Below are positions 15,616 through 64,000 of a DNA stretch of 64,000 nucleotides, piece by piece; positions within the stretch are counted from its first letter, which is position 1; each line of letters begins with the position of its first letter. The DNA lies in assembly GCA_002786025.1 (NCBI GenBank), contig NHNW01000016.1, forward strand, positions 62,001-126,000, given 5' to 3'. Source of the stretch: Zasmidium citrigriseum. Its lineage: Eukaryota; Ascomycota; Dothideomycetes; Mycosphaerellales; Mycosphaerellaceae. Made by a program: the position numbers and the translations under genes. The notes under the pieces were generated by a model. That model had not been told where the DNA came from, ran no database searches, and worked only from the letters and a program-made list of their open reading frames with translations.

Positions 15616-16407
15616 ATGCGAACCAATTCGACCATCACGACCGACAATGATATCACCTGGTACTACGAGCAAGAGGGTTCGGGTCCCGACGTTGTTCTCA
15701 TCCCCGACGGCCTTGGGGAGTGCGGTTTCTTCAGCAAGCCTATGTCACAGATAGCAGCCAGTGGGTTCAGAGTGACGACTTTCGACATGCCCGGCATGTC
15801 ACGATCCTCCAAGGCTCCGGTAGAGACATACACCAAGGTCACGGCGCAGAAGCTAGCTTCGTACGTGATCAACCTCCTCGACCACCTCAAGATCCAGAAG
15901 GCCACATTTTGGGGCTGCAGTTCCGCCGGCTCGACAGTTCTGGTGTTGTGCAAAGACTATGCAGATCGAGTTCGGAACGCCTTTGTCCATGAGGCTCCAA
16001 CGACGCACATCGAATGGTTCGAAGAGCTTTTCAACTTGGACGACGAAGCCATGTCTCAACGTATGGACCAAGTCAACCGTAAAATGCAGAACTTTGGAAA
16101 TAACTGGGACGATCTCGGTCCTGAAGTCCATGCTCGACTTTGGAAGAATTATCCGGTCTGGGTTCGTGGATATCCGAGAACAATTCCTGATTCAACGCCG
16201 ATGGAAGATTTGGACAAGGTGGCGAAGGTGCCGGTTTTCTGGACGGTCGGGAGTGAGACGCGAATGTCATTGTTCTTTGTGAATGTTGTCGGAGCGACGA
16301 AGGCTGGGATTGAGATCAAGCTGCTTCCTGGTGGTCATTTGGTGTATGTCAGTCATCCGGATGAGTTTGCGAAGCATGTGATTGAACAGACGAGGAAGTA
16401 TGTATAG
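15616..16407 (+). CDS. Alpha/beta hydrolase, zearalenone hydrolase (ZHD101)-like lactonase
   Basis: A single-exon protein of 263 residues, one shorter than ZHD101 of Clonostachys rosea. Near-identical stretches run along its length: the N-terminus starting MRT.STI, ITWYYEQEG, VTTFDMPGMSRS, TAQKLASYVI, WVRGYPRTIP and YVSHPD.FAK. The published ZHD101 triad Ser102/Glu126/His242 corresponds to Ser102 in WGCSSAG, Glu126 in VHEAP and His241 in LPGGHLVY. The Trp in PVWVRGYP matches the substrate-contacting Trp183. ZHD101 opens the lactone ring of the mycotoxin zearalenone. A related lactonase activity is likely, but the cap region (about residues 133-165) is diverged and substrate range cannot be read from sequence. 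It sits between a secreted oxidoreductase and a transporter. Confidence 0.88.
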   Translation: MRTNSTITTDNDITWYYEQEGSGPDVVLIPDGLGECGFFSKPMSQIAASGFRVTTFDMPGMSRSSKAPVETYTKVTAQKLASYVINLLDHLKIQKATFWGCSSAGSTVLVLCKDYADRVRNAFVHEAPTTHIEWFEELFNLDDEAMSQRMDQVNRKMQNFGNNWDDLGPEVHARLWKNYPVWVRGYPRTIPDSTPMEDLDKVAKVPVFWTVGSETRMSLFFVNVVGATKAGIEIKLLPGGHLVYVSHPDEFAKHVIEQTRKYV

Positions 16408-50070: not shown

Positions 50071-50664
50071 TCAGCGCTCCTCCACGTCATGGCCGCCCTC
50101 ATCCTCTTCAGCCCTTCGTCTGTTTCTCCTGCCAAGATGCTTCTTCCTATCCTTACGATCCTTCCTCTTGGGCGCATCATCCTCAAGCTCAATACCCACA
50201 CCTTTGCTCATCTCGTTTGCAGCCTCCGCATCCTCTCCCAACCCACCTTCTTCACTCGCCCTCTTATCCCCCTTGCCCTTCGCTCCGTCTCTCGTCTTCC
50301 CATCGAGACCCCTCAATCCACCATTGCTCCTCTTTTTGTTAAACTCTTCAGGCATGTACTTGATCATGAACTGCTTGCTCATCTCGGCCGCACTCCTTAA
50401 AATCGACTGTTTACCTCCGCCGCCGTAGGGCTTGCCGTTCTGTTCAAGCTCTTCAGGGGATGGGACGTCTTTCTTTGAGATGTGTTCGAACTCTTCGTGG
50501 GCGTCGGCGTGGGAGATGAGTTCGGGCGAGGAGGTTAGGTCTGAGGAGGTGCTGGTGTTGGAGCTGTCGGCTGCTTGGTCTTTCAGAGCTTCCTTGGAAG
50601 AGTTCGCATTAGGAGCTTCTCCTGGCTTTTTGGGTGGGCTGTCTGCGTTGTTGGTGGTGGGCAT
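50071..50664 (-). CDS. Hypothetical charged low-complexity protein
   Basis: 197 residues from the first ATG (50664); the frame extends to a TTG at 50688. Ser/Thr/Glu-rich N-terminus (TSTSSDLTSSPELISHADAHEEFEHISKKD), a short more ordered block (ILRSAAEMSKQFMIKYMPEEFNKK), then a Lys/Arg/Glu-rich tail with a nuclear-localisation-like KRKDRKDRKKHLGRRNRRR. It could be nuclear or nucleolar. It stands head to head with the first gene of the ENNV...CxC set (324 bases apart) but lacks that C-terminal module. Confidence 0.6.
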   Translation of the reverse strand: MPTTNNADSPPKKPGEAPNANSSKEALKDQAADSSNTSTSSDLTSSPELISHADAHEEFEHISKKDVPSPEELEQNGKPYGGGGKQSILRSAAEMSKQFMIKYMPEEFNKKRSNGGLRGLDGKTRDGAKGKGDKRASEEGGLGEDAEAANEMSKGVGIELEDDAPKRKDRKDRKKHLGRRNRRRAEEDEGGHDVEER

Positions 50665-50988
50665 TGTCTCTTGGATTGGAATGGTCAATATGGTCGTGGG
50701 TCCGGCCCAGTGTTGAAATTCGCGATAAATATGAACTTTTGTGTTTGCTCGAAAAGCAAGGGCTCTTCTAGCTGCTTCTAACTTGATGTTGTCTTCGGAA
50801 GCTTGTCATTGATATTCTTGCGCTCAAAACAACAGGTCTCTACAAAGCGCATGGGAGCGGTCAAAGCATCTAGCAAACCACTCCTTCTTGCAGCCGGGCC
50901 AACGACGTTGGTATTTAATACTCACTTCATACACACCTATCGACCGATCCCAACAAATCTCACATCCTCAAGTCAGAGACGCACCAAC
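50665..50988. other. Divergent intergenic region
   Basis: A 324-base region between the charged protein gene (minus) and the first ENNV...CxC gene (plus). The plus-strand frame is open from 50803, but the ATG at 50989 fits the protein start better. No clear element. Confidence 0.45.
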
Positions 50989-51447
50989 ATGCCAAGAGCA
51001 CCCACCACAAACGACATCGACGACGACTACGACATTCTCGGCGACGCCGATCTCCAAGAATTCAGCAAGGCCAACCAAGACGAGATCGAAGACGACTTCG
51101 TTCTTGTCCCGCCCGAGAAAAAAGACAAGAGACCGGAAGATATACCCATCGATGCCGATAACGACTCAGATGGTTCTCTCGATAATGATATTCCTGCCAT
51201 GGAAGACGATTCGTCTGATGACAACGGAGACGACTTGGTGTGGGATATGAGACACACTACTCGGGATTTGTCTGCTGAGGGAAAGTCCGGTGATGAGGGC
51301 GGAAGGGAGGGGCACGTTGATGAAGGGGGAGAGGAAGCCGAAGACGATCGTGAGCGGGAAGGAGTGGACGAGGGCAAGCGTAGTGAGGAGAACAATGTGG
51401 ACATTGCCCGGGGCTTGCAGGGAGCTGCGGGAGGCTGCGCTTGCTAA
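50989..51447 (+). CDS. Small acidic protein with C-terminal ENNV-x12-CAC module (member 1)
   Basis: A single exon of 152 residues. Body very acidic (IDDDYDILGDADLQEF, DEIEDDFVLVPPEKKDKRPEDI, MEDDSSDDNGDDLVWDM) and probably disordered. The last 19 residues are ENNVDIARGLQGAAGGCAC followed directly by the stop. The same ENNV-x12-C-x-C-stop arrangement ends the genes at 52643 and 53548, whose bodies are unrelated. A C-terminal CxC is a known Rab-type geranylgeranylation signal, so the protein may be membrane-tethered through its tail; that is inference. No known domain. The ATG at 50989 is preferred over in-frame upstream codons. Confidence 0.75.
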   Translation: MPRAPTTNDIDDDYDILGDADLQEFSKANQDEIEDDFVLVPPEKKDKRPEDIPIDADNDSDGSLDNDIPAMEDDSSDDNGDDLVWDMRHTTRDLSAEGKSGDEGGREGHVDEGGEEAEDDREREGVDEGKRSEENNVDIARGLQGAAGGCAC

Positions 51448-51850
51448 GACCTATACAGTCGCGAACGTCTTGAGTTGGGCTGTCTTCCGACTTTGAGCAC
51501 GAAGAAATTCTTGCGAATTGAAGATTTAGTCTCTTAGATCATTTGCTGTAGCCTCTCTCGTCCTAGGCAGGATGGGGATCTCCCAGATAACATGGCGAGG
51601 AACTGCTGTGGTATGCTACATTTAGCGGCTCATGATTCGCATGCTCAATGTCCATGTCCACATACAGTAGTATTGATCATCTCGAATTCTGATGTCCCTT
51701 GACCACACGTGGCTACTCTACAAGGAAGGACACAATCAGGCTGCATCGGCCGCGGCTTCCATCGGCAATCATTCTCAAAAGCCGACGCCATCCACAAACT
51801 TTCCCTGAACCTCACCTCCACTCTTCCATCAACAAGAACATGCCACCACG
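51448..51850 (+). other. Intergenic
   Basis: 3' flank of member 1 and promoter of the Rieske gene. Nothing else is supported. Confidence 0.5.
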
Positions 51851-52351
51851 ATGACAGCCTCCGACACAAACCCCTGGATATACGCCGGCCTCGCCTCCTC
51901 AATTCCAGACATAACCAAAACCTCCACAAAGACCAAAATCCACGACACGACAATCAACCCCGACTCTTCAAATTCCCCTCCGCCACCACCCTGCCGCATC
52001 CTCCAAATCAACAAAGACACGCCACCAACATACCTAACCCCCGACGCCGCCCAAACAACTCTCAGTCTAGCGCCACAGGTCCTTCTCTTCCGCTACCGCA
52101 ACAAAATCCACGCCATCAACCACGAATGTCCGCATCGCAGTTATCCTCTATCGAGAGGGTCGCTGTATGATATCGAGGATTTTGGGATTGTGCTGAGTGC
52201 GGGTATTGTGTGTCCAAAGCATGGTTGGAGTTTTGATCTTTTTACAGGTGAGAGTGATCGCGGTGGGTATCGGTTGGGGGTTTGGGAGGTTGAGACGAGA
52301 GAGGGGGAGGATGGGGAAGGGGAGGGGGTTTGGGTTAGGAGGAAATCGTGA
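51851..52351 (+). CDS. Single-domain Rieske [2Fe-2S] protein
   Basis: A single exon of 166 residues. A Pro/Ser-rich leader is followed by a Rieske domain: VLLFRYRNKIHAINHECPHRSYPL then GIVLSAGIVCPKHGWSFDLFTGES. The cluster ligands are C93-x-H95 and C121-x2-H124, the standard Rieske pattern with a longer spacer than in most ferredoxins. No oxygenase catalytic domain is attached, so it would act as a small electron carrier or as a nitrite-reductase-small-subunit-like protein. No signal peptide or anchor is seen. It is embedded between two genes of the ENNV...CxC set on the same strand. Confidence 0.82.
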   Translation: MTASDTNPWIYAGLASSIPDITKTSTKTKIHDTTINPDSSNSPPPPPCRILQINKDTPPTYLTPDAAQTTLSLAPQVLLFRYRNKIHAINHECPHRSYPLSRGSLYDIEDFGIVLSAGIVCPKHGWSFDLFTGESDRGGYRLGVWEVETREGEDGEGEGVWVRRKS

Positions 52352-52642
52352 AGGGTGATTACTGTGAGGAGAATACTCTCCAACATCGGGAATAGGTCGA
52401 TTGGGAACGTGTCTCTTTCTTGCTCGTGCATAGGTCACGACGAGCTTCCACGATGGCTATGATCACGGCTGAAAGGTGTTTCAAAGAGGAGACCTTTCCA
52501 CATGGAGCTGGAGCAGACACATCAATAAGCTGCCCTATTTCGCACAAACATTGCTCGATCAGTCAACCTCTTAAATACTTCCACAGTCTTGGGGAGACAT
52601 TTCTTCCTTTCCACGTCAGCAATATCGACAGGCCACGACTCC

Positions 52643-53134
52643 ATGTCTTCGTCTACGAAGTCCACCTCTGAAAACAAGAACCCACCGTCCTCCAGCGACC
52701 GCAACTCCAAGAAGCCGATCCGACCCACCCTAGCACGACTGACTCCCCTCACCCCGATCACCGAAGACGTCTCCCCGCTCGACCTAGACGAACGTTTGTC
52801 GCTCTCCCCAGACGCCGAACGATTCCTCAACTCTAGAGACCAGCCTAGGCAGGAGGGCCATGACGAGTTCAATCTTGATGACATAGACGGCGTCGACTGG
52901 AACGATGTTCCGGCAGAAGACAGGGCGGAGATAGATAGTCTGATGGCGGAGACCAAACAAGAGGACATAAACAAAGCGAAGAATCGACAGGAAGTCCAAG
53001 ATGCTGTGGAGGATATCTTGGAGAGGAGAGGATTGAGGAAGAGGTGTGGTGATGAGGATGCGAACAAGCGGGATGAGAATAATGTCGACATCGCTGCTGA
53101 GGAGAAGAAAGAGGAAGGCCGATGTTCCTGCTAG
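52643..53134 (+). CDS. Small charged protein with C-terminal ENNV-x12-CSC module (member 2)
   Basis: A single exon of 163 residues from the ATG at 52643 (the frame opens at 52589). N-terminus Ser/Lys-rich, then RPTLARLTPLTPITEDVSPLDLDERLSLSPDAERFL, an acidic patch (DEFNLDDIDGVDWNDVPAEDRAEIDSL) and a helical Lys/Glu-rich part (INKAKNRQEVQDAVEDILERRGLRKR). It ends ENNVDIAAEEKKEEGRCSC-stop, with the same 12-residue spacer as members 1 and 3. The terminal CSC is a possible double prenylation site. No known domain. Confidence 0.75.
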   Translation: MSSSTKSTSENKNPPSSSDRNSKKPIRPTLARLTPLTPITEDVSPLDLDERLSLSPDAERFLNSRDQPRQEGHDEFNLDDIDGVDWNDVPAEDRAEIDSLMAETKQEDINKAKNRQEVQDAVEDILERRGLRKRCGDEDANKRDENNVDIAAEEKKEEGRCSC

Positions 53135-53547
53135 ATGTAGACATTACCCAGGAACGAAGGGCCGAAGGTTGAGCTGAGGATGAGATACTTGCTATTTAAT
53201 CCGTCCCACGATCGGCTACATCTCGGATATTAGGATAGCATGTCAAGCCTCTCGTCTGCTTTCCGTGATCATGCAGAGCTACTATGTTCGAAATTTCCTA
53301 TACTCCTTCAACACCACACGTAACATATCAAGACCGCCTGGAGAACAGAATTCTCGTTTGCTCTCATAAGAATAGCGCAAAGAGTCTCCTTAATAATGTT
53401 CGTTTCCAGAGAGTTCCATAAGCCAAAGCGAACGTGAAGTGAGACCAAGCAAACACTTCCACGCACATTAAAGCTCTGTTGGATCTCGCCTTGTAGTGCG
53501 TCTTTTCGATCTTCGTCAACTACATTGCATCACAAACGCAAGCATCC
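53135..53547 (+). other. Intergenic
   Basis: 3' flank of member 2 and promoter of member 3. No gene or RNA is visible. Confidence 0.5.
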
Positions 53548-54083
53548 ATGAAGCACCGAGCCGCAAAGCGGCCTCGCCGCTCCCCCGAACCGCCTCCACC
53601 TTCAGTCCACGTCCGTTTGCTCGAAGGCCACATCAACGCCCTGTCATTTCTATCCAAGGACTACAACTCTGGCTGGTCAGGCGTTGCTCAAGCCATCACC
53701 AACAGGAAAGAGGGAAAGGAACCCGATGTCAAAAGAGGATCCCGCAGCAGGGACTGGTTGTTCCGCATACGAGACCTGGACTCCGCAAGTTTATCAGAGC
53801 TTGGGTTCTATAATCTCCCACAAGAGTTTCGAGAAGCGGTGCAGAAGGCGATTCAAAGCATAAATGAAGAGGCAAGCAATGGAGATGAGGAAGCAAGGGG
53901 GATGAAGACAATGTCGGAGAGCAAGACAACATTTGCGAGGAAGGCAAGAGGACTTCCAGCGAGGCCTCAAAGGCAATGGGATTGATAAGATGGCGTGATC
54001 ATTGTGTGAAGCAGGCCGCAGGCGAGAACAACGTCAATATGGATGTCTTCGAGAAGAGTGGTCCGGCCGGATGCTCTTGTTGA
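53548..54083 (+). pseudogene. Member 3 of the ENNV-x12-CxC set, with an apparent frameshift
   Basis: The ATG at 53548 opens a 145-codon frame that ends at 53985. From about 53901 the next frame is open, uses codons like its neighbours (GAG, AAG, GAC, GCC) and ends at 54083 with GENNVNMDVFEKSGPAGCSC-stop, the same module and spacer as members 1 and 2. The two frames meet at a run of five G (53897-53901); one more G would join them. The body has a basic start (KRPRRSPEPPPP), a folded-looking part (VRLLEGHINALSFLSKDYNS, WLFRIRDLDSASLSELGF) and an acidic linker. A sequencing error, a real mutation or a missed splice are possible; no good intron signal spans the point. Otherwise the 145-residue version would lack the module. 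Confidence 0.55.
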
Positions 54084-61995: not shown

Positions 61996-62169
61996 CTGTC
62001 TCGAAGCCGAAGTGTGAACGATATGCCAAGCGCACGTGACTAAGCCTTATGTGCTGCCTTAGGCTAGTTGCTCTTGCTACTCCCCTCATAACAGGTGGCA
62101 TTCCACAGCCACCATCTATGCTCTTATGCCTATCGATATCTATCGCTCTTATCTCAAATCGACCGAACA

Positions 62170-64000
62170 GGGGGGGTATTAATATTATCTTAATTATATC
62201 TTATAACCTACGCTAGCTAGCGGCTATTAGCGCTTTATAATAACTCCCCTTATAATAAGCTCTTATCTATACTCCTTTCTTAAATACCCGTAGCCGTAAT
62301 ATACTCGCTCTTTACTTCGGTAATAACTATATAACGCGGTAGTATTAGGCGCGTCGTCGTTACGATTAGTTCGTTAGTACGGCTAGCGTTCGTTATATAC
62401 GCTCTATATAAGGGTCCCGTACCTTTAATAGATAAAGGGTTATCGGTCGTAGTTAGTTTAAGATCGTATCTAGGGTTATAAGGTAACCTCTACGCGATAT
62501 AAACTTATAGAGGTCGTTACTATAATAGACTCTAGGTAGCTTCTTACTACGCCTTTCGTTAATAGTATAAAGGATAAAGGAAGAAGCTAAGTCTAGCGCT
62601 ATACCCGCGATCTTAAAGAGGCCTATCTATAGGAGTTCTTATAACTTCGGACGGTATATTACAGTACTACGTAGTAGTACTAGATCCCTAGTCTTAAAGT
62701 ATTTACTCTAGGTATTAATCTTATTATTAAAGTATTCGATCCTTCGGTCTACGCTCTACCTTACGTTATATCGAACTATATACTAGATCTACTTACGCTT
62801 TATAAAGTAGTCTAGTACCCTTATCGTATATCTATAGCTAGAACCGCCTACTAGGTAGTCTACTTTTAATACGTCTAATAGCTTCTACTTACGCGGTAAT
62901 AGGTATTCCGGAAGCTCTTCTACGTAAACTACTATTTTAATCTACGCTAGAGTATAACTTACCCTAAGCCTAAGGATAGGCTTATAATTTATAGCGAATA
63001 CCGCCGCCTAAGCCTCCTTAACCTAGTTAGTAAGGGTATTAATAGGGTGCCTAGTCTTATCTATAGTTAGTATCGAGGTAGCCTTTTTAATAGTACGCCG
63101 GAGGGTACGATTAAAGTTTTCTACGCTACCCGTTAAGCTCTTAGTAGCCGTTAGTAACGGCCGCGTATAGATATCTCGGTCTTAAAGGAAGTTAGCTACT
63201 ATAGTATACTCTAATCTAGGGTTAAAGAAAACTATAATAGGATACGTATTACGTTAGAAACTACGCTATAGAGCGCTAATAACCGTCTCTAATTCCTTAT
63301 CTAGTAGTAGTTCGACCTCGCCGAACCTTATAAAGGCGTCTACTATAACGAATAGGTACTCTATACTATCTATAGTCTTCGGAAATAGGCCTATTAGATC
63401 GATCTAAAGGACCTCGTACGGGTTAAGGACGGACAACGGCTATATTAGTATATATAATTCTTCTAGGCGCTATAGGTTATAATTAATATAACTAGTAATA
63501 TAGTCGTAAATATCTTTTATTATTCCGGGCTACTATACTCGTTAAATAAGCTTAGTATATACGATCCTTAGGTTAAAATACCTAGCTTAATTATATATTA
63601 CTCTTAGAAGGCTAGAAACCTTATCTAGTATAATATACTACTACTAAACTTTACTACTCTTACCCTTCTATTAATTATAATAACGCTTCTATAGAGTCTA
63701 AGTACCCTTATTATACTTAAACGGTACTACCTTACGCTTAAATACCTAGTACTATATCTTACTCTAATCTTAAGGGACCTACTAATAGCGAAGGTATCTT
63801 ATAATATCCCTATACTACTACTCTTAGATCTTAAGCTACCTCGTAGGTTTAGCTATATCTAGCGTATTTAGTAGCGTAATAGGCTTATAGTACTCGTAAC
63901 GGTAGCGTTACTTCTAGTACGCTAGTTTAGCGTCGTCTAGTCTATACTAGTAAAGAATCTTAGTTTCGAGCGATAGGTAGTTAATTACTAAGGGCGTAGT
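62170..64000 (-). mobile_element. RIP-saturated Ty3/Gypsy-like retrotransposon (partial, 5' part outside)
   Basis: From about 62170 to the window end the sequence is AT-rich and nearly lacks CpA and TpG: by eye there are only about three in 1.8 kb, while CpG is retained. The switch at about 62165-62175 is sharp. On the minus strand the remains of a pol C-terminus can be read with many TAA/TAG at former Gln or Trp codons. The 3' end of the element faces the window interior and its 5' part continues beyond base 64000. This pattern is typical of repeat-induced point mutation during the sexual cycle. No LTR or target-site duplication was identified. Confidence 0.85.
63240..63545 (-). pseudogene. 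Integrase relic of the retrotransposon
   Basis: The minus-strand frame shows remains of the integrase zinc-binding region (PGIIKDIYDYI near 63515) and the catalytic core opening DLIGLFPKTIDSIEYLF followed by VIVDAFIRFGEVE (about 63310-63405). Downstream, near 62660-62690, GDLVLL-type residues of the integrase C-terminal region are visible. Interspersed stops are all TAA or TAG, as expected from RIP. The DLIG..P..S.EYL..VVD pattern is that of Ty3/Gypsy-type integrases. It is inactive. Confidence 0.6.

Follow-up and report, generated by a model that had tools for sequence, protein, structure and literature searches.

A possible Rab-type prenylation tail on non-GTPase proteins encoded at one locus of Zasmidium citrigriseum

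Results

The locus and its three tails

The DNA analyzed here, referred to as the window, is a stretch of 64,000 nucleotides of the Zasmidium citrigriseum genome (contig NHNW01000016.1, positions 62,001 to 126,000). Within it, a C-terminal module of the form ENNV-x12-C-x-C-stop is encoded three times, always on the plus strand, and this module is the subject of the present study. The module comprises 19 residues and the stop, i.e., 20 codons. Two small genes, genes 1 and 2, run in frame from their ATGs into tails 1 and 2, and tail 3 lies downstream of a third frame which we call the gene 3 body (Table 1).

The initial annotation described three adjacent genes that all end in ENNV-x12-CxC. All three tails were found at these ends, and genes 1 and 2 carry theirs in frame, but the protein read from the ATG at 53548 stops before it reaches tail 3. 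Adjacency must be qualified as well. The tails fall within 2.7 kb, but a gene for a Rieske-type protein lies between genes 1 and 2.

Following ENN, the tails read VDI-ARGLQGAAGG-CAC (tail 1), VDI-AAEEKKEEGR-CSC (tail 2) and VNM-DVFEKSGPAG-CSC (tail 3). All three thus have the double-cysteine end expected of a Rab. Their cysteines are the third from the end and the last, and not the fourth from the end as in the CAAX substrates of FTase and GGTase-I.

Table 1. Features of the locus, in window coordinates (ORF, open reading frame; pI, isoelectric point; CIM, C-terminal binding region-interacting motif).
Feature	Position (strand)	Description	Basis or details
Tail 1	51388..51447 (+)	ENNVDIARGLQGAAGGCAC-stop	CIM-like V-D-I 51397-51405; 10-residue linker; CAC 51436-51444
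Tail 2	53075..53134 (+)	ENNVDIAAEEKKEEGRCSC-stop	CIM-like V-D-I 53084-53092; 10-residue linker; CSC 53123-53131
Tail 3	54024..54083 (+)	ENNVNMDVFEKSGPAGCSC-stop	CIM-like V-N-M 54033-54041; 10-residue linker; CSC 54072-54080
Gene 1	50989..51447 (+)	152-aa acidic protein, pI 4.05	Single ORF, codon log-odds
Gene 2	52643..53134 (+)	163-aa acidic protein, pI 4.58	Single ORF, codon log-odds
Gene 3 body frame	53548..53985 (+)	145-aa basic ORF, pI 10.11	Ends ...RQWD before tail
Rieske [2Fe-2S]-domain gene	51851..52351 (+)	Between genes 1 and 2, outside module set	PF00355, E=1.1e-09

The module is confined to the locus and constrained as protein

A pattern encoding ENNV[DN][IM] matched three times in the 44,446,153 bases of the genome, and these matches are the three tails; the reversed pattern, used as a control, gave no match. 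All three exact sites end in CxC-stop (3/3). When one mismatch was allowed, 41 sites were found compared to 23 for the control. Of the 38 sites outside the module, the 27 with loci were read, and none of these ends in CxC or CC. The looser pattern NNV[DN][ILM] gave 45 sites genome-wide, i.e., the three tails and 42 others, against 24 for the control. Of these 42 sites, 38 were read over 25 codons (19 of the 38 meet some stop in that span) and four from loci, and in none of the 42 was a stop preceded by CxC or CC reached over that distance. The window holds one additional ENNV (15688-15699, minus strand), which has no CxC end. As a separate observation, near-identical EDNVNIEIN[EK]L[IV]LDN[AT] stretches form a dispersed repeat on five contigs (L050, L053, L058, L068 and L072).

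Compared pairwise over the 20 codons, stop included, the tails have 14/14/7, 12/13/10 and 16/12/7 identical bases at codon positions 1/2/3. Bases were kept at first and second positions but have diverged at third positions, and the tail therefore looks constrained as a protein. The same pattern argues against recent copying of the tails as DNA and for preservation of the protein sequence, also in tail 3. The earlier proposal of selection on a C-terminal signal is therefore supported, by uniqueness under the patterns searched, by the terminal place of all three copies and by the diverged third positions. Judged from sequence, the retention of the module in three tails with dissimilar bodies is a stronger point than the CIM-like motif by itself. 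The tails probably originated by local tandem duplication, in which the tail would have been retained while the bodies diverged.

The protein bodies

The bodies had been called charged and unrelated. They are indeed charged, acidic in genes 1 and 2 and basic in the gene 3 body, and no similarity between them could be detected by shuffle test, as 565, 536 and 237 of 1000 shuffles gave local alignments equally good to those of body against body. The initial annotation argued against common ancestry of the whole proteins, but disordered tandem duplicates may diverge past recognition, and the bodies may still share an origin. Searches at E<=1 returned nothing from Pfam or from PDB sequences for genes 1 and 2; among PDB sequences, the gene 3 body had one weak match (CASC3, E=0.06). 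Single-sequence structure models were of low confidence for gene 2, with a predicted local distance difference test (pLDDT) score of 56.5 and no compact fold, and poor for the gene 3 body (pLDDT 49.7). Searches of the genome found no second copy of the body of gene 1 or gene 2, and for the gene 3 body one unconvincing match (E=2.4). The reading frames of genes 1 and 2 have codon log-odds of 0.35 and 0.29, the highest among the six frames, and on synonymous choice alone the gene 2 frame is also the best (0.04). Loose GTPase-like strings occur in the bodies, with five DxxG in gene 1 and one DxxG plus NKRD in gene 2, and have little meaning alone.

The third tail and its frame

Tail 3 lies in a different frame from the ORF that starts at ATG-53548. 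Over 53884-54080, its own frame has the best codon log-odds. Codon preference is highest for the body frame in 53850-53940 and for the tail frame in 53895-53985, with no intron-like gap between. Among GT-AG introns of 35-200 bases that would lead into the frame of tail 3, none appears usable: the donors of the 33 candidates agreed with at most 3/6 consensus bases, and an intron of this kind joining the gene 3 body to tail 3 was therefore rejected. The change of frame between body and tail could be due to a mutation, an assembly error or an odd intron. Given the stop at 53985 and the lack of a good intron, tail 3 is treated here as a real coding-like copy whose link to the body is only putative.

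The gene 3 body scored 19.5 bits (E=0.0014) against DUF7877 (PF25289), below the curated cut-off of 27. In the genome, this family has one match over the cut-off and five weaker ones, at least three of which look by eye like bromodomain stretches. We dropped the DUF7877 identity due to the low score and the partly bromodomain-like nature of the weaker genome matches.

Comparison with Rab-like tails of the same genome

The CIM is an aliphatic-x-aliphatic ('AXA') motif of the Rab hypervariable tail which contacts the C-terminal binding region of the Rab escort protein (REP), and CxC is a RabGGTase site, according to the sections on Rab tails in PMC3504004 and PMC9141697. The module is laid out in the same way as such a hypervariable tail with its CIM and CxC or CC end, i.e., with a hydrophobic-x-hydrophobic element, a hydrophilic linker of about 10 residues and a terminal C-x-C. 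In tails 1 and 2, V-D-I is aliphatic-x-aliphatic, and V-N-M in tail 3 qualifies only when Met is allowed.

Ras-superfamily matches were found at 39 places in the genome, of which 30 with loci were examined, and 10 genes among these 30 loci have CC or CxC ends in a match-compatible frame. A [VI]-x-[VIL] element is present 6-15 residues before the first cysteine in 8/10 of these Rab-like tails. Two of them come particularly close to the module. The tail of L014 reads VNV-NAPKPESEGG-CNC, with exactly the 10-residue spacing of the module, and the tail of L015 reads VNL-NARGDSGPKEG-CAC, with a spacing of 11 residues, one more than in the module. From their sequences, we take L014 to be Rab6-like and L015 to be Rab5-like. 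Alignment of tail 1 with L015 scored above 1999/2000 shuffles of the tail 1 residues preceding CxC, and 6/24 tail-to-Rab comparisons beat at least 1970/2000 shuffles.

As a control, we collected 38 distinct CxC-stop ends from the window and the collected loci, with six window-overlapping loci left out. At least 20 open codons were available for 23 of these ends, a filter which drops L014. Among the 23 ends, only the three tails have [VI]x[VLIM] exactly 10 residues before CxC. The stricter [VI]x[VLI], placed anywhere from 6 to 16 residues before CxC, is found in tails 1 and 2, in three Rab-like genes and in 2/17 others.

The initial annotation had proposed a recognition or docking role for the ENNV part. 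This proposal takes on a concrete shape, as V-x-[I/M] sits where most Rab-like tails (8/10) carry the [VI]-x-[VIL] that constitutes a CIM, the element that REP binds in Rabs. The invariant ENN directly before the CIM is a feature of the module, and was seen in none of the 10 Rab-like tails. Two Ras-superfamily genes, L017 and L020, have GRCC ends and long open reading frames of 437 aa and 353 aa, respectively; in L020, no clear CIM was seen at the usual distance.

Prenylation machinery and neighboring features

The machinery that such a tail would depend on is encoded in the same genome. A GDI-family gene is found on contig C61 and a second GDI-family gene, which is REP-like, on C74 (best PDB match REP-1, E=1.7e-21). 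Three prenyltransferase beta subunits are encoded, matching GGTase-I, FTase and RabGGTase, with E=3e-97 for the RabGGTase beta gene, and the PPTA repeats of prenyltransferase alpha subunits occur at two places, both candidates for the RabGGTase alpha subunit. The genome thus holds both REP and RabGGTase components, i.e., a REP-like gene, a RabGGTase beta subunit and alpha-type PPTA repeats.

Neighboring genes include Zn2Cys6 and SEN1 matches, as fits a fungal genome. A charged orphan ORF of 197 aa (50071-50664, minus strand) is coding-like in its frame, has no Pfam match at E<=0.001 and is divergent to gene 1, about 325 bases from its start. AT-rich, TATA-like stretches were seen by eye roughly 65-80 bases upstream of the three ATGs (tatttaata 50912-50920, cttaaatact 52570-52579 and cattaaag 53467-53474). 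The G+C content is 37% at 62001-64000, compared to 49-57% in the rest of the window; such low G+C resembles the repeat blocks affected by repeat-induced point mutation (RIP) in ascomycetes.

Discussion

We propose that ENNV-x12-C-x-C is a Rab-type prenylation tail on non-Rab proteins, which would be doubly geranylgeranylated via REP and RabGGTase and anchored to endomembranes, and we judge this to be an evenly balanced proposition. The idea of prenylation, which previously relied on the CxC end, is strengthened as the sequence now suggests a complete Rab-type tail. In the proposed mechanism, the ENNV valine and the second residue after it (Ile or Met) would form the hydrophobic-x-hydrophobic CIM and be gripped by the C-terminal binding region of REP. 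The hydrophilic linker of 10 residues would carry CxC towards the active site of RabGGTase, which would geranylgeranylate both cysteines. The products would then be delivered to endomembranes, with the charged and poorly folded bodies on the cytosolic side. Such bodies would most simply be rapidly diverging adaptors or baits tethered to the membrane. Somewhat less probable than the proposal for the tail itself is the wider one that the cluster encodes natural non-GTPase clients of REP and RabGGTase, i.e., fast-diverging, poorly folded proteins with a complete Rab-type tail that borrow the prenylation and delivery of Rabs.

Several observations weigh against this proposal. The most serious concerns REP, which is held to require the Rab GTPase domain in addition to the CIM in the relevant parts of PMC9141697 and PMC4358939. 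No P-loop GxxxxGK[ST] and no D[TI]AG motif occurs in the three bodies, and none of the three proteins matched the GTPase Pfam family PF00071 at E<=1. The sequence searches thus detected no GTPase domain, which argues against efficient binding to REP, and the Rab F3F4/switch surface is probably absent from the bodies as well. Additionally, an account from 2005 had Rabs as the sole known substrates of RabGGTase, as stated in the section concerned (PMC1175975).

The comparison with Rab tails has weaknesses of its own. Two of the 10 Rab-like tails do not have [VI]-x-[VIL] (one has F-K-I, and the other has no such element in range), and 18/24 tail-to-Rab comparisons did not beat 1970/2000 shuffles. 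Since 2/17 of the other CxC ends also carry [VI]x[VLI], the A-x-A motif alone is weak evidence. The Met of tail 3 is atypical for a CIM, and a strict [VI]x[VLI] counts only 2/3 tails. Concerning the genes themselves, tail 3 is not connected to an ATG frame, and the frame of gene 1 is not the best on synonymous choice alone (-0.01 vs 0.06 for an antisense frame). No homologue was found by protein-database search, as none of the word-sharing candidates reached the threshold for gene 2 (72 candidates, E<=1), the gene 3 body (18, E<=1) or gene 1 (235, E<=10); however, the fungal coverage of this search had no positive control, and the missing homologues therefore say little. Finally, contact between REP and the Rab C-terminus is judged probably absent in plants in the passage on plant REP in PMC9293207, and the role of the CIM in fungi is thus an assumption from the mammalian complex.

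The module proteins are consequently to be distinguished from Rab GTPases: they have no detected GTPase domain, and their bodies are charged and poorly folded. They are not Rabs, and may resemble Rabs in reaching membranes.

Membranes could also be reached by another lipid anchor. If the terminal cysteines were S-palmitoylated, the ENNV part might recruit a palmitoylating enzyme or a membrane partner, and a GTPase domain would not be required. A parallel is provided by fungal casein kinase I, which is likewise not a Rab and carries a lipid anchor at its C-terminus; it was formerly proposed as a RabGGTase substrate and is apparently palmitoylated according to the part of PMC1175975 that deals with it, although it differs from the module proteins in being a kinase. 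We nevertheless find palmitoylation unlikely, as it does not account for the constant distance from the stop, for the CIM-like V-x-[I/M] or for the layout that the module has in common with the Rab tails of its own genome.

A C-terminal motif unrelated to lipids, where ENNV binds a partner and CxC binds metal or forms a disulfide, is slightly more doubtful still. Short invariant ends of disordered proteins often bind partners, but a terminal CxC is known from prenylated proteins. Gene 1 has only the two cysteines of its CAC end, gene 2 has one besides CSC and the gene 3 body has none; with so few cysteines in the bodies, no complete metal site is evident.

We consider it improbable that the module is a Rab-tail decoy, whose CIM would bind REP or GDI with no need for prenylation, such that Rab delivery would be tuned by competition. 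The tail layout is the same as in Rabs and the genome has REP-like and GDI genes, but the conserved CxC is not required by it, and contact with the CIM is described as boosting an affinity begun by the GTPase domain in the corresponding part of PMC9141697. A recent partial duplication of 3' ends without function, or chance, is just as improbable and already disfavored: the three sites do lie within 2.7 kb and tail 3 is out of frame with the gene 3 body, but third positions agree in 7-10/20 codons vs 12-16/20 at first and second positions, which points to old divergence and protein-level constraint.

For a Rab-type prenylation tail on non-Rab proteins, partial precedents exist. Ykt6 is a non-GTPase which is doubly prenylated by FTase and GGTase-III, as outlined in a portion of PMC12001115. 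Like the module proteins, it is a non-Rab with two C-terminal cysteines, and the same portion of PMC12001115 has it partly modified by an enzyme containing the RabGGTase beta subunit. However, Ykt6 is a SNARE with tandem cysteines and a CAAX-type end, is modified with the GGTase-III alpha subunit and has no CxC end in what the Ykt6 passages of PMC12001115 and PMC9141697 describe. In plants, RabGGTase acts beyond Rabs and without REP on non-Rab substrates (Shi et al., 2016, as cited in sections of PMC9293207 and PMC12197051), but the plant case is one of non-Rab GTPases in the account given in that section of PMC12197051, unlike the non-GTPase module proteins. By analogy, Ykt6 and the REP-independent plant substrates may be regarded as precedents for a relaxed specificity of RabGGTase. 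The part of PMC5869587 on Rheb tails offered no usable precedent. Among the matches listed from the open-licence literature, no title or abstract opening described tails that combine a CIM with CxC on non-GTPase proteins of fungi.

Such proteins would tend to be overlooked by family searches because their bodies are not conserved. RabGGTase is described as specific for Rabs, with REP reading the GTPase domain, in the parts of PMC4358939, PMC9141697 and PMC1175975 that introduce the enzyme. If the proposal is true, RabGGTase, thought to act on Rabs only, has other natural clients, and REP would be able to select cargo that does not have the Rab fold. Proteins which share nothing but the tail with Rabs would test whether CIM and CxC are sufficient in a living cell, and disordered proteins tethered to membranes would join the prenylated proteome.

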